Assembly (NCBI RefSeq): GCF_007747215.1 | Contig: NZ_CP036273.1 | Location: 6,866,322-6,930,321 of the forward strand | Direction: 5' to 3' | Source of the DNA: Urbifossiella limnaea | GTDB taxonomy: Bacteria > Planctomycetota > Planctomycetia > Gemmatales > Gemmataceae | DNA: 64,000 nt | In this document: positions 45,958 to 49,749 of the stretch, piece after piece | Layout: each line of letters starts with the position of its first letter | Numbering within the stretch: position 1 is the first letter of the stretch | Position numbers and translations under genes: made by a program | The notes under the pieces: generated by a model | Databases searched by the model: none | What the model was told of the DNA's origin: nothing | The model's input: the letters and a program-made list of their open reading frames with translations, nothing else

Positions 45958-46386
45958 ATGGCGACACGGCACGAGACCGAGACGGGTCCGCACCTGCTGG
46001 TGGTCATCGACCACCAGGAAGCCCGGGTCTACCGCACGGAGGTTCGGGGGGCCGTCCCCGAGCGCATCGCCCCCTACGACCCGCACGGGCACGGCCGGCA
46101 CCTGCACTCCGCCAACGAGTGGACCGACGGCAAGCGGCCGGCCGAGCGGCGGAGCTACCACGAGGCCGTCGCCAAGGCGTTACAGGGGGCCGATCAGATC
46201 CTGCTGTTCGGCAGCGGGACCGGGCGGAGCAGCGCGATGGACCAGTTGCTCGCCGACCTGAAGGACCACCACGCCGACGTCGCCGGCAATGTCATCGGCT
46301 CGGTCGTCGTGGACGCCCACCACACGTCCGAGAACGCGCTACTCGCCCGCGCCCGGGAATTCTACGCCGAGTACAACCGCAAGTGA
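45958..46386 (+). CDS. hypothetical protein, possibly eRF1-domain-like
   Basis: 142 residues. HLLVVIDHQEARVYRTEV and the later ILLFGSGTGRSSAMDQLLAD segment resemble the C-terminal domain of the archaeo-eukaryotic release-factor-like proteins seen in bacteria, but I am not certain. No signal peptide. ATG 45958 has GGAGGA seven bases upstream. The stop overlaps the GTG start of the GH130 gene by four bases, so the two are co-translated. Confidence 0.6.
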   Translation: MATRHETETGPHLLVVIDHQEARVYRTEVRGAVPERIAPYDPHGHGRHLHSANEWTDGKRPAERRSYHEAVAKALQGADQILLFGSGTGRSSAMDQLLADLKDHHADVAGNVIGSVVVDAHHTSENALLARAREFYAEYNRK

Positions 46387-47471
46387 CGCGAACCGTGCAG
46401 CGGCTCTTGACGCGGCTGTTGCTCCGGCCCGAAGACGTGCCCGCGTCGAGCGCCGACTTCGAGGTCGTCGGCGCCTTCAACCCCGGCGCCGTCCGGGTGG
46501 ACGATGAAGTCGTGCTGCTGGTGCGCGTGGCCGAGCGGCCGCGGGAACGGCGGCCGGGCTTCACCGGCCTCCCCCGCTGGGATGTCGCGGCCGGGCTGAC
46601 AATCGACTGGGTTCCCGATGACGAGTTGATCGTCGTGGACCCGCGCGTGGTCCGCCGCAAGGCCGACGGGCTGGTGCGGCTCACCTTCACGTCACACCTG
46701 CGCGTCGTCCACTGCGGGGACGGGACGGGAGTGCGGGAGGTCACGGGCGTCACCTTCCGCCCGCAGGGGGAGGCGGAGGAGTTTGGGGTGGAGGACCCGC
46801 GGATCACCCCGCTGAACGGCCGCTTCTACTTCACCTACGTCGCCGTGTCACGGCACGGCCCGGCGACGGCGCTGGCGAGCACGTCCGACTTCCGCACCTT
46901 CGACCGGCACGGCATCGCCTTCTGCCCCGAGAACAAGGACGTGGTGCTGTTCCCGGAAATGATCGGCGGCGGCTACGCCGCGCTGCACCGGCCGGTGTGC
47001 GGCACGCCGTTCACCCGACCGGAGATGTGGGTGGCTCGCTCGCCGGACCTGCTTCACTGGGGCGCCCACGTCCCGCTGTCGCTCGCGGGCGGCGAGTGGC
47101 AGTCCGGCCGGGTCGGGGCGGGCCCGCCGCCGCTCCGCGTCCCCGAGGGGTGGCTGGCAATCTACCACGGAAACCGCCACCCGACACGGCCTGGGGACGT
47201 CGGGGAATATTTTGGCGGCCTGCTCCTGCTCGACGCGACCGACCCGACGCGGGTGCTGCGGCGGACCGCCGAGCCGTTCATGCGGCCCGAGGCAGAGTTC
47301 GAGGTGACCGGCTTCGTGCCGAACGTGGTCTTCCCGACGGGGGTGGTCGAAAACGGGGAGGCGTTGCTCGTGTACTACGGGGCCGCCGACGCGGCCACCG
47401 CAGTCGCGGCGTTCTCGCGGCGGGAATTGGTGGCGGCGATGACGGGTTTATCCATGACGGGGCGCAGTTGA
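46383..47471 (+). CDS. GH130 family glycoside phosphorylase/hydrolase
   Basis: 362 residues. The five-bladed propeller of GH130 shows up as GAFNPGAVRVDDEVVLLVRV, the catalytic-region motif GVEDPRITPL, and Asp-rich blade closures. GH130 enzymes phosphorolyse or hydrolyse beta-mannosides such as mannosylglucose or mannosyl-N-acetylglucosamine. Phosphate-binding residues were not individually checked. GTG 46383 is coupled to the previous stop. A second, larger GH130-type gene lies on the opposite strand beyond the RAYT transposase. Confidence 0.87.
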   Translation: MTRTVQRLLTRLLLRPEDVPASSADFEVVGAFNPGAVRVDDEVVLLVRVAERPRERRPGFTGLPRWDVAAGLTIDWVPDDELIVVDPRVVRRKADGLVRLTFTSHLRVVHCGDGTGVREVTGVTFRPQGEAEEFGVEDPRITPLNGRFYFTYVAVSRHGPATALASTSDFRTFDRHGIAFCPENKDVVLFPEMIGGGYAALHRPVCGTPFTRPEMWVARSPDLLHWGAHVPLSLAGGEWQSGRVGAGPPPLRVPEGWLAIYHGNRHPTRPGDVGEYFGGLLLLDATDPTRVLRRTAEPFMRPEAEFEVTGFVPNVVFPTGVVENGEALLVYYGAADAATAVAAFSRRELVAAMTGLSMTGRS

Positions 47472-47473
47472 AC

Positions 47474-47552
47474 CTGGCGAGCCGGGAGCGTGAGCGACCG
47501 GAGCCTGATGAGATGCGTGCCACTCCGGTCGCTCACGCTCCCGGCTCGCCAG
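47474..47552. repeat. REP palindrome, copy 1 (30-bp arms)
   Basis: The left arm 47474-47503 and right arm 47523-47552 are perfect reverse complements over 30 bases, with a 19-base loop containing GAGATGCGT. It begins two bases after the GH130 stop codon. Both arms carry CTGGCGAGCCGGGAGCGTGA or its complement. Copy 2 at 48192-48277 has the same arms and the same GAGATGCGT in its loop, so they belong to one family. Confidence 0.85.
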
Positions 47553-47559
47553 TTACAAC

Positions 47560-47572
47560 CCCGGCTCGCCAG
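47560..47572. repeat. partial extra REP arm
   Basis: CCCGGCTCGCCAG repeats the last 13 bases of the right arm of copy 1, eight bases after it. It looks like a truncated third half-palindrome. Confidence 0.6.
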
Positions 47573-47626
47573 CTTGATCGCACATCTTCGTGTTGCACGC
47601 GGGTCGCGCAGATTTACACTTTCGCC

Positions 47627-48211
47627 ATGCGCTTCTGGCTCCTCACCAACACCACTTATGGCACCCGGCTCCCGGGCGACGCCCGCGGGTCGGTCACGTC
47701 CGTGCGCGACCTCCGCGCTGACGAAGCACCCTCCGGGGTCCGCCGCGAGCACGACCTGCCCGGCGAGCCCTGTGAAGAAGCGATCCCCGGCCTGTACCGG
47801 AGTGCGCTGGAGCGGATGACCGGGCCGACGATCCTCCTCGACCTCACGCACGCGGAAGTGCTGCTCGCGCAGTTCCAGGAAACTGCCGCGTACCGCCAGT
47901 GGGTACTCCACGCCGTCGCAATCATGGTCAACCACTTCCACGTCGTCGTCCAGGTTCCCGACGACCCCGACCCGCGCAAGATCCTGGCCGACTTCAAGGC
48001 CTACGGAACCCGCGCCCTCAACCGCCGGTACGGCACCCCGCCGTCGGAGACCTGGTGGACGACGAACGGTTCGAAGCGGAAGCTGAGGGACGACGAAGCC
48101 CTCGCCGCCGCCACCCGCTACGTCCTCTTCAAGCAACCCGATCCGCTCGTCGTCTGGTCGCCCGAGTCTGATGTGCCTGGCGAGCCCGGAGCTGGCGAGC
48201 CGGGAGCGTGA
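47627..48211 (+). CDS. REP-associated tyrosine transposase (RAYT, IS200-like)
   Basis: 194 residues of the Y1 transposase superfamily. The metal-binding HUH motif is in MVNHFHVVV (His103 and His105), and the catalytic Tyr is Tyr126 in FKAYGTRALNRR. RAYTs are single-copy, domesticated relatives of IS200 transposases that cut and spread REP palindromes as single-stranded DNA. This one is bracketed by two such palindromes, and the last six codons plus stop are encoded by the arm of copy 2. A TTTACACT stretch eight bases ahead of ATG 47627 might serve as a -10 for leaderless transcription; no ribosome site is visible. Confidence 0.85.
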   Translation: MRFWLLTNTTYGTRLPGDARGSVTSVRDLRADEAPSGVRREHDLPGEPCEEAIPGLYRSALERMTGPTILLDLTHAEVLLAQFQETAAYRQWVLHAVAIMVNHFHVVVQVPDDPDPRKILADFKAYGTRALNRRYGTPPSETWWTTNGSKRKLRDDEALAAATRYVLFKQPDPLVVWSPESDVPGEPGAGEPGA

Positions 48212-48277
48212 GCGACCGGAGTCTAACGCGGGTCGAGATGCGTTGGACTCCGGTCGCTCACGCTCCCGGCTCGCCAG
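48192..48277. repeat. REP palindrome, copy 2 (32-bp arms)
   Basis: Arms 48192-48223 and 48246-48277 are perfect reverse complements over 32 bases; pairing continues about six more bases with a T-G wobble into the loop. The first arm contains the stop codon of the RAYT gene. It shares its first 30 arm bases and a GAGATGCGT loop motif with copy 1. It ends 20 bases before the stop of the second GH130-type gene. Confidence 0.85.
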
Positions 48278-48297: not shown

Positions 48298-49749
48298 TCA
48301 CACCCGCGTCATGGCGTTCAGCACGTCGTCGAGGGGGACGGTGGCGAAGCTGCTGGCGTAGTCCGACATGGCGTAGGGGATGACCAGGTCGCGGCCGTGG
48401 ACCAGGCCGCCGCAGCTGTACACCACGTTCGGCACGTACCCCTCGCGCTCGTTCGCGTCCGGTTCCAGCAGCGGCGCCGCGAGCCGGCCGATCAGGCGGG
48501 ACGGGTCGTCCCGGTCCAGCAGGAACGCCCCCATCGCGTACCGCCGCATCGGCCCGACCCCGTGGGTCAGCACCAGCCACCCCGCCGCCGTCTCGATCGG
48601 CGACCCGCAGTTGCCGAGTTGGATGTACTCCCACGGGTACGTCGGCCGCGCGACCAACTCCTTTGCGTACCAGAAGTGCGGCTGGTCCGAGTACATCAGG
48701 TAGACGTTCTCGTTGTCCTGCCGGCTCAGCATCGCGTACAGCCCGTTCACCATCCGCGGGAACAGGGCGAACCCCTTGTTCTTCACCTCCGGGCCGTTCA
48801 GCGTCCCCACCTTGAAGTGGAGGAAGTCTTCCGTCTCGAGCATCTGGGGCAGCGTCACCCGGCCGTCGTAGGCGGTGTACGTGGCGTAGTAGCAGACGCG
48901 GCCGTCGTCGTGCGTGAACCGCACGAACCGGGCGTCCTCGATCCCGTTCGTCTCGGTCGGCGACGACGGGAAGATGATCCGCTCCGACACGTTCAACGCC
49001 GGGTCGAACCGGATTTCGTAGTTGGCCTTCGCCAGCACGAGCATGGTGTGGGCGATCGGCTCGAACTCGCGCTGTCGGGTGCGGTGGCTCTTCAGCACGG
49101 CCTTCAGCGTGCGGTCCAGGTCGGCGAGGGTGAAGTGGTCGCCGAGCGAGGCGACGGTCTGCTCGGTCAGCGGGCCGTTGATCCCGAGCTCGCTCAGCTT
49201 GCGCTGGAACAGCGCCTTCTCGTACAGGGCGTTCGGCACCACCTCCGGCGCCTGGACGTACCGGGTCGGCTCGTCGATGCGGATGCGGCTCTCGGCGTCG
49301 ATCACGCCCGACCGGAAGGTGATCGACGAGATGTGCCCCTCGCCGGTCGCCCGGAGGCTCACGACGAACCGCCGCGCCCCTTCCGGGAGGCCGGACTGGT
49401 CGGGGTGCCAGACCATCGACGGGTTGAACAGGGCGGCCGACTCGAGCGCGTACTCCGAGGTGAAGTACGAGCCGATGAGCAGCCGGCGGGCCTCGCTCAC
49501 CGGCTGGTCGGTCAGCAGGTGCTTGCGGACCTGCTCGAACCGGCCCAGGAAGAACTCGCGGGTGCGCTGGTGCCGCGCGCGGAAGTCCCGCATCACGGTT
49601 TCGAGTTGCCCCGCGACCTCCGCCTCGGACAGGGACGCGACGCGGGCGATGATCCGCTCGACCCGGGCCTCGTTCGGGATCTCGAACGGCCGGATCACGA
49701 CGCGGGAGTTCGTCGGCTTGAGGACGATCCCCGTACGCTTGACGTCCAT
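48298..49749 (-). CDS. GH130-type glycosidase (long form)
   Basis: 483 residues, with about 110 residues before the GH130 propeller. The catalytic region reads GIEDARFVRF, and NCGSPIETAAGWLVLTHGVG near the C-terminus is characteristic of the larger GH130 subgroups. No signal peptide. It acts on beta-mannosidic linkages by phosphorolysis or hydrolysis; which is unclear. It lies 60 bases downstream of the glycosyltransferase gene on the same strand, which suggests they handle the same glycan, one building and one breaking it. Confidence 0.87.
   Translation of the reverse strand: MDVKRTGIVLKPTNSRVVIRPFEIPNEARVERIIARVASLSEAEVAGQLETVMRDFRARHQRTREFFLGRFEQVRKHLLTDQPVSEARRLLIGSYFTSEYALESAALFNPSMVWHPDQSGLPEGARRFVVSLRATGEGHISSITFRSGVIDAESRIRIDEPTRYVQAPEVVPNALYEKALFQRKLSELGINGPLTEQTVASLGDHFTLADLDRTLKAVLKSHRTRQREFEPIAHTMLVLAKANYEIRFDPALNVSERIIFPSSPTETNGIEDARFVRFTHDDGRVCYYATYTAYDGRVTLPQMLETEDFLHFKVGTLNGPEVKNKGFALFPRMVNGLYAMLSRQDNENVYLMYSDQPHFWYAKELVARPTYPWEYIQLGNCGSPIETAAGWLVLTHGVGPMRRYAMGAFLLDRDDPSRLIGRLAAPLLEPDANEREGYVPNVVYSCGGLVHGRDLVIPYAMSDYASSFATVPLDDVLNAMTRV

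Follow-up and report, generated by a model that had tools for sequence, protein, structure and literature searches.

A probable REPtron in Urbifossiella limnaea: a class-3-like Y1 transposase gene whose stop codon lies in the loop of a flanking REP unit

The window analysed here, a stretch of 64,000 nucleotides from Urbifossiella limnaea (contig NZ_CP036273.1), contains a compact 804-bp unit with matching ends (47474..48277). This unit is very probably a REPtron, i.e. a single-copy HUH-Y1 transposase of TnpA_Y1 class 3 that is bracketed by two REPINs of a cognate REP family. Class-3 RAYTs flanked by non-GTAG hairpins are already known, and the window element belongs to that kind. What is new here is that the gene end falls in the REP loop, in phase, recurrently across members of the family Gemmataceae.

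The transposase gene (47627..48211, plus strand) extends from an ATG at 47627 to a TGA at 48209-48211, and encodes a protein of 194 residues. This protein matches the Pfam family Y1_Tnp with 25.9 bits and the NCBIfam family REP_Tyr_transpos with 46 bits, the latter under the cut-off of 80. The top PDB fold match of its AlphaFold model (pLDDT 89) is 4er8, the E. coli TnpA_REP in complex with a REP hairpin (E 1.2e-5), followed by the transposases of ISDra2 and IS608. The REP_Tyr_transpos and 4er8 matches bear out the first-pass annotation, made from the DNA letters, which had called the gene a RAYT with its REPs. The HFH motif given there is the HUH motif H103-F104-H105 (47933..47941, plus strand), with H105 invariant and H103 present in at least 90% of an alignment of 51 sequences. 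The catalytic tyrosine is Y165 of RYVLFKQ and not the tyrosine of FKAYG. It forms part of a Y165----Q170 motif (YVLFKQ; 48119..48136, plus strand), which is the signature of class 3 (Quentin et al. 2018, PMC6006769). Both residues of this motif are invariant in the 51 sequences, as are W4, Y11 and K124. The profile of the homologue family covers 170 positions, with conservation starting at residue 3 (WLLTWTTYGTWLPGD), and thus includes an extended conserved N-terminal region as in class 3 (profile of about 155 residues). The assignment to class 3 is based on the motif, the host phylum and the flanks.

Hairpin 1 lies 5' of the gene (47474..47552) and has perfect 30-bp arms (47474-47503 and 47523-47552) with a loop of 19 nt, while hairpin 2 (48192..48277) overlaps the 3' end of the gene and has perfect 32-bp arms (48192-48223 and 48246-48277), which lengthen to 38 bp (97%) if one mismatch is allowed. 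Folded as DNA, the first gave -45 kcal/mol (z -13.4) and the second -55.6 kcal/mol (z -14.2). Both palindromes had been noted in the first-pass annotation and are confirmed by these arm coordinates and z-scores, and the sequence that their loops were said to share was found in both (GAGATGCGT, at 47510 and 48235). Each of the two consists of a pair of REP units facing in opposite directions, which makes it REPIN-like. The arm 20-mer CTGGCGAGCCGGGAGCGTGA occurs four times in the window at up to three mismatches, against 0.04 expected. In addition, window sequence comparison identified the partial third arm previously reported next to hairpin 1 (CCCGGCTCGCCAGCT; 47560..47574, minus strand), as well as another in the coding sequence (48177-48189), which belongs to a partial duplicate of the arm of 15 nt (CTGGCGAGCCCGGAG; 48177..48191, plus strand) that is in frame within the tail of the gene. 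Folding and covariation define the REP unit of the left arm of hairpin 2 (48194..48219, plus strand) as a small hairpin, CCGG-GA-GC-(GTGA)-GC-GA-CCGG, with stem CCGGGAGC/GCGACCGG and tandem G.A mismatches, preceded by the single-stranded foot GGCGAG; the single-stranded form of the cognate REP top strand reads GGCGAGCCGGGAGCGTGAGCGACCGGAGT. The TGA stop codon (48209..48211, plus strand) falls in the GTGA loop of this unit. The stop is therefore inside a palindrome arm, as had been described, but the coding sequence that lies there with it amounts to five complete codons and a fraction of another one rather than the last six codons.

Homologues of the RAYT were found in 59 of 95 Gemmataceae genomes, and the REP core is present in 55 of the 95, with up to 360 copies. 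REP-like palindromes occur on both sides of many homologues, with sequences that differ between genomes. The REP of the window element itself also flanks orthologous RAYTs in other genomes, and in two of the genomes (G091 and G033) it is found at the resident class-3 RAYT. Whether orthologous genes have conserved REP arms at their 3' ends had been proposed as a test of the annotation, and such arms, rather than unrelated flanks, are present in many of them. A set of 60 different flanking REPs was selected by the foot GGYGAR (giving GCGA or GTGA) and the loop GTNA alone; on average 6.4 of their 8 stem positions are paired, compared to 2.1 at GTNA sites located within coding sequence, and the stem covariation lies above that of all 1000 column shuffles. 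Hence foot and loop are constant, partly through the choice of sites, and the stem varies with compensation, which is new here. Some other homologues have CCGA or CGGA as foot. CGTC-tagged REPs were also considered, and were rejected because of a foot mismatch. At four loci (L044, L064, L066 and L092) head-to-tail tandem REP units adjoin RAYT genes, in some cases joined in frame to the tail.

In 13 homologues of the family the stop codon is the TAA or TGA of a REP loop, although the hairpin at one of these loci (L057) could be due to chance. The first forward REP was located with a hairpin detector for symmetric GTNA stems only. In 22 cases the reading frame extends as far as this REP, and in 19 of them its loop is in phase (binomial p 4e-7), or in 15 of 18 after close relatives are collapsed, the sole correction for kinship. 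Among genes that stop before the REP, only 4 of 14 have the loop in phase. The distance from the conserved domain to the loop varies from 20 to 68 nt among the cases where the frame reaches the REP. Only this phase bias stands, because stop codons as such are not enriched in palindromes: 16 of 93 positions are palindromic at the stop, and 18 of 93 at 25 nt downstream. That REPs can supply the stops of RAYT genes and overlap their 3' ends has been published before (PMC3733652), and the simplest reading of the bias is coding constraint on a stop supplied by the REP.

Alternatively, selection could favour the 3' REP because of a role in the RAYT mRNA or in autoregulation, such that the stop in the loop couples the end of translation to a bindable hairpin and is not merely tolerated. 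The recurrence of the loop stop in many lineages, with differing tail lengths and REP sequences and with the phase kept, speaks for such selection, as does the fact that both class-3 RAYTs of the host genome end in their own REP. However, purifying selection against readthrough would yield the same phase bias, 14 homologues stop before the REP and 75 have no forward GTNA hairpin, and the palindromic fraction at the stop equals that downstream; we therefore regard this explanation as rather unlikely. An equally doubtful extension to class-3 REPtrons in general would be that the loop of the cognate REP is selected as the stop of the gene, making gene end and DNA substrate one sequence, with the phase kept by this coupling beyond what coding constraint alone would achieve. 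The link that the first-pass annotation suggested between the 3' end of the gene and its target thus holds as a matter of anatomy, but coding constraint suffices to explain it, with no special function required.

In the host genome the 30-mer arm has six exact copies, and the 20-mer REP core has 23 copies at no more than one mismatch (reversed control 0). The family is therefore genome-wide, as anticipated, and the possibility that no other copies exist can be dismissed. These core copies are spread over about a dozen sites and, with few exceptions, form inverted doublets. The arm offset in 11 paired copies is 55-56 nt in seven and 49 nt in two. The letters of the inner stem vary between copies, and self-complementarity is largely kept within most of them. 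Most doublets are situated in narrow intergenic gaps, several of them 0-25 nt from a gene; they occur clean, without transposase remnants, and outnumber the transposase. Such inverted doublets with constrained spacing and mostly extragenic location are REPINs. One REPIN copy (L022, G000:C1:7686566-7686634) is located inside an open frame of 736 residues with typical coding composition, and is apparently read through.

The first-pass annotation had further suggested that the window element may be the source copy of this family. This is not supported: no order of the copies is apparent, and the REP is also abundant in genomes where no examined Y1 gene carries it, namely G045 (360 copies of the REP core) and G015 (318 copies). 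None of 50 further Y1 loci in ten REP-rich genomes, within the stretches examined, had the window REP. For the same reason a rule of one RAYT to one REP fails as a snapshot. The REPs of G045 and G015 could be orphan or foreign-driven populations, and REPs that outlive their RAYT, to which these genomes are comparable, have been reported (PMC3686654).

The host genome harbours a second class-3-like RAYT outside the window (L003, G000:C1:984977-988210), which is 32% identical to the window RAYT over part of the protein. It is flanked by perfect doublets of a different palindrome (TTAGGCCGGGGCGCAAGCCCCG...), and its stop, a TAG, also lies within the palindrome. This REP has 111 genome copies at up to three mismatches (reversed control 0), and its family is about five times more numerous than that of the window REP. 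A second class-3 RAYT with its own 111-copy REP, and with its stop likewise taken from that REP, is new here.

The window element is flanked by two convergent, distantly related genes (46119-47471 and 48298-49749), which presumably encode GH130-type glycosidases/phosphorylases. The congener G092 has the orthologous convergent GH130-like pair without RAYT or REP, and with only a few bases between the stops. Its upstream GH130-like orthologue (L145, G092:C602) is split by an unrelated coding stretch, and part of its 3' end is present twice. Because this neighbouring gene is itself disrupted, insertion and loss are indistinguishable in G092. At the REPIN sites 297920 and 6007913 of the host genome, the palindrome is absent in G089 and in G090/G092. 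These element-free orthologous sites in congeners, which are new here, represent a presence/absence difference that does not give the direction of the events.

The 804-bp unit with its matching ends, together with the orthologous site of G092 without the element, could also be read as an ordinary IS200/IS605-type element that moves as a unit, in which the palindromes are subterminal hairpins and the "REPs" decayed or internally deleted ends; moreover, the Y----Q motif is reported to be related to the class 1 motif (PMC6006769). This is improbable, as such elements are characterized by multiple near-identical transposase copies per genome and only one copy was found, the sole other homologue found (L003) having different ends. 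In addition, the hairpins occur as clean doublets in excess of the transposase, the element ends are paired REPs, and the best fold match is TnpA_REP. A single-copy Y1 gene flanked by a genome-repeated REP is instead the arrangement of a RAYT in a REPtron. That the palindromes are strong convergent terminators between GH130-like genes, flanking the transposase by chance, is hardly credible. Several copies are indeed located just downstream of genes and the window locus lies between convergent genes, but the same conserved REP units with their conserved foot occur on both strands, the same REP flanks orthologous RAYTs elsewhere, and neither window copy is followed by a T-run.

For the REPtron we propose, by analogy to TnpA_REP, that REP units folded into single-stranded hairpins are bound by the enzyme via their foot GGCGAG and the stem with its GTNA loop, and that Y165 cuts and rejoins these units, which would result in REPIN doublets being copied into intergenic gaps. 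The predicted transposase is probably active or was so until recently. Owing to the tight packing of its gene against the right-hand REPIN, the REP loop GTGA provides the stop codon; once the REP supplies the stop, coding constraint would keep the loop in frame while the length of the tail changes.

Comparison with the E. coli complex of TnpA_REP and REP (4er8; PMC8266576) reveals a common HUH-Y1 fold and, in the DNA, a single-stranded foot next to a stem that is interrupted by a mismatch, whereas the sequence identity of the proteins is about 11%, the foot is GGCGAG instead of GTAG, and the mismatch is a tandem GA instead of AA/GC. RAYTs of class 2, associated with GTAG REPs, have a GTAG (GTRG) foot and a Y---NP motif, as opposed to GGYGAR and Y----Q here. 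In the REPtrons described by Di Nocera et al. (2013, PMC3733652), as in the window, REPs or long inverted repeats lie on either side of the RAYT gene, and in some cases they overlap its 3' end ("3'ov"). The ends of GTAG REPs often give TAG stops to flanking ORFs (PMC3733652), but the stop here (TGA or TAA) belongs to the loop of the hairpin instead of being a TAG in the foot, and the GTAG tag is absent. The doublets resemble the REPINs of Bertels and Rainey (2011, PMC3116915) in being inverted REP pairs with near-constant spacing that form one long hairpin and are mostly extragenic. They differ from those of P. fluorescens SBW25 in their number, about a dozen copies versus hundreds, and in that the inner stem differs between copies yet is self-complementary.

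The closest resemblance is with TnpA_Y1 class 3, which Quentin et al. (2018, PMC6006769) describe as mainly found in Planctomycetes, as having atypical flanking hairpins with further copies elsewhere in the host genome, and as closer to a REPtron than to an IS. The window element shares the planctomycete host, the Y----Q motif and the non-GTAG flanking hairpins that are genomic repeats. In contrast to the CnGA foot stated there, the foot here is GCGA/GTGA within GGYGAR, REPIN doublets dominate, and the portions of that paper drawn on here mention no recurrent stop codon within the REP loop. The poorly studied class-3 RAYTs hereby gain a concrete definition of their REP, with a GGYGAR foot, a covarying stem and a GTNA loop, and the recurrent loop stop illustrates a way for a domesticated transposase gene to remain physically locked to its target repeat. 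Two RAYT/REP pairs in one closed genome, together with element-free orthologous sites, make REP recognition and spread testable outside the Proteobacteria.
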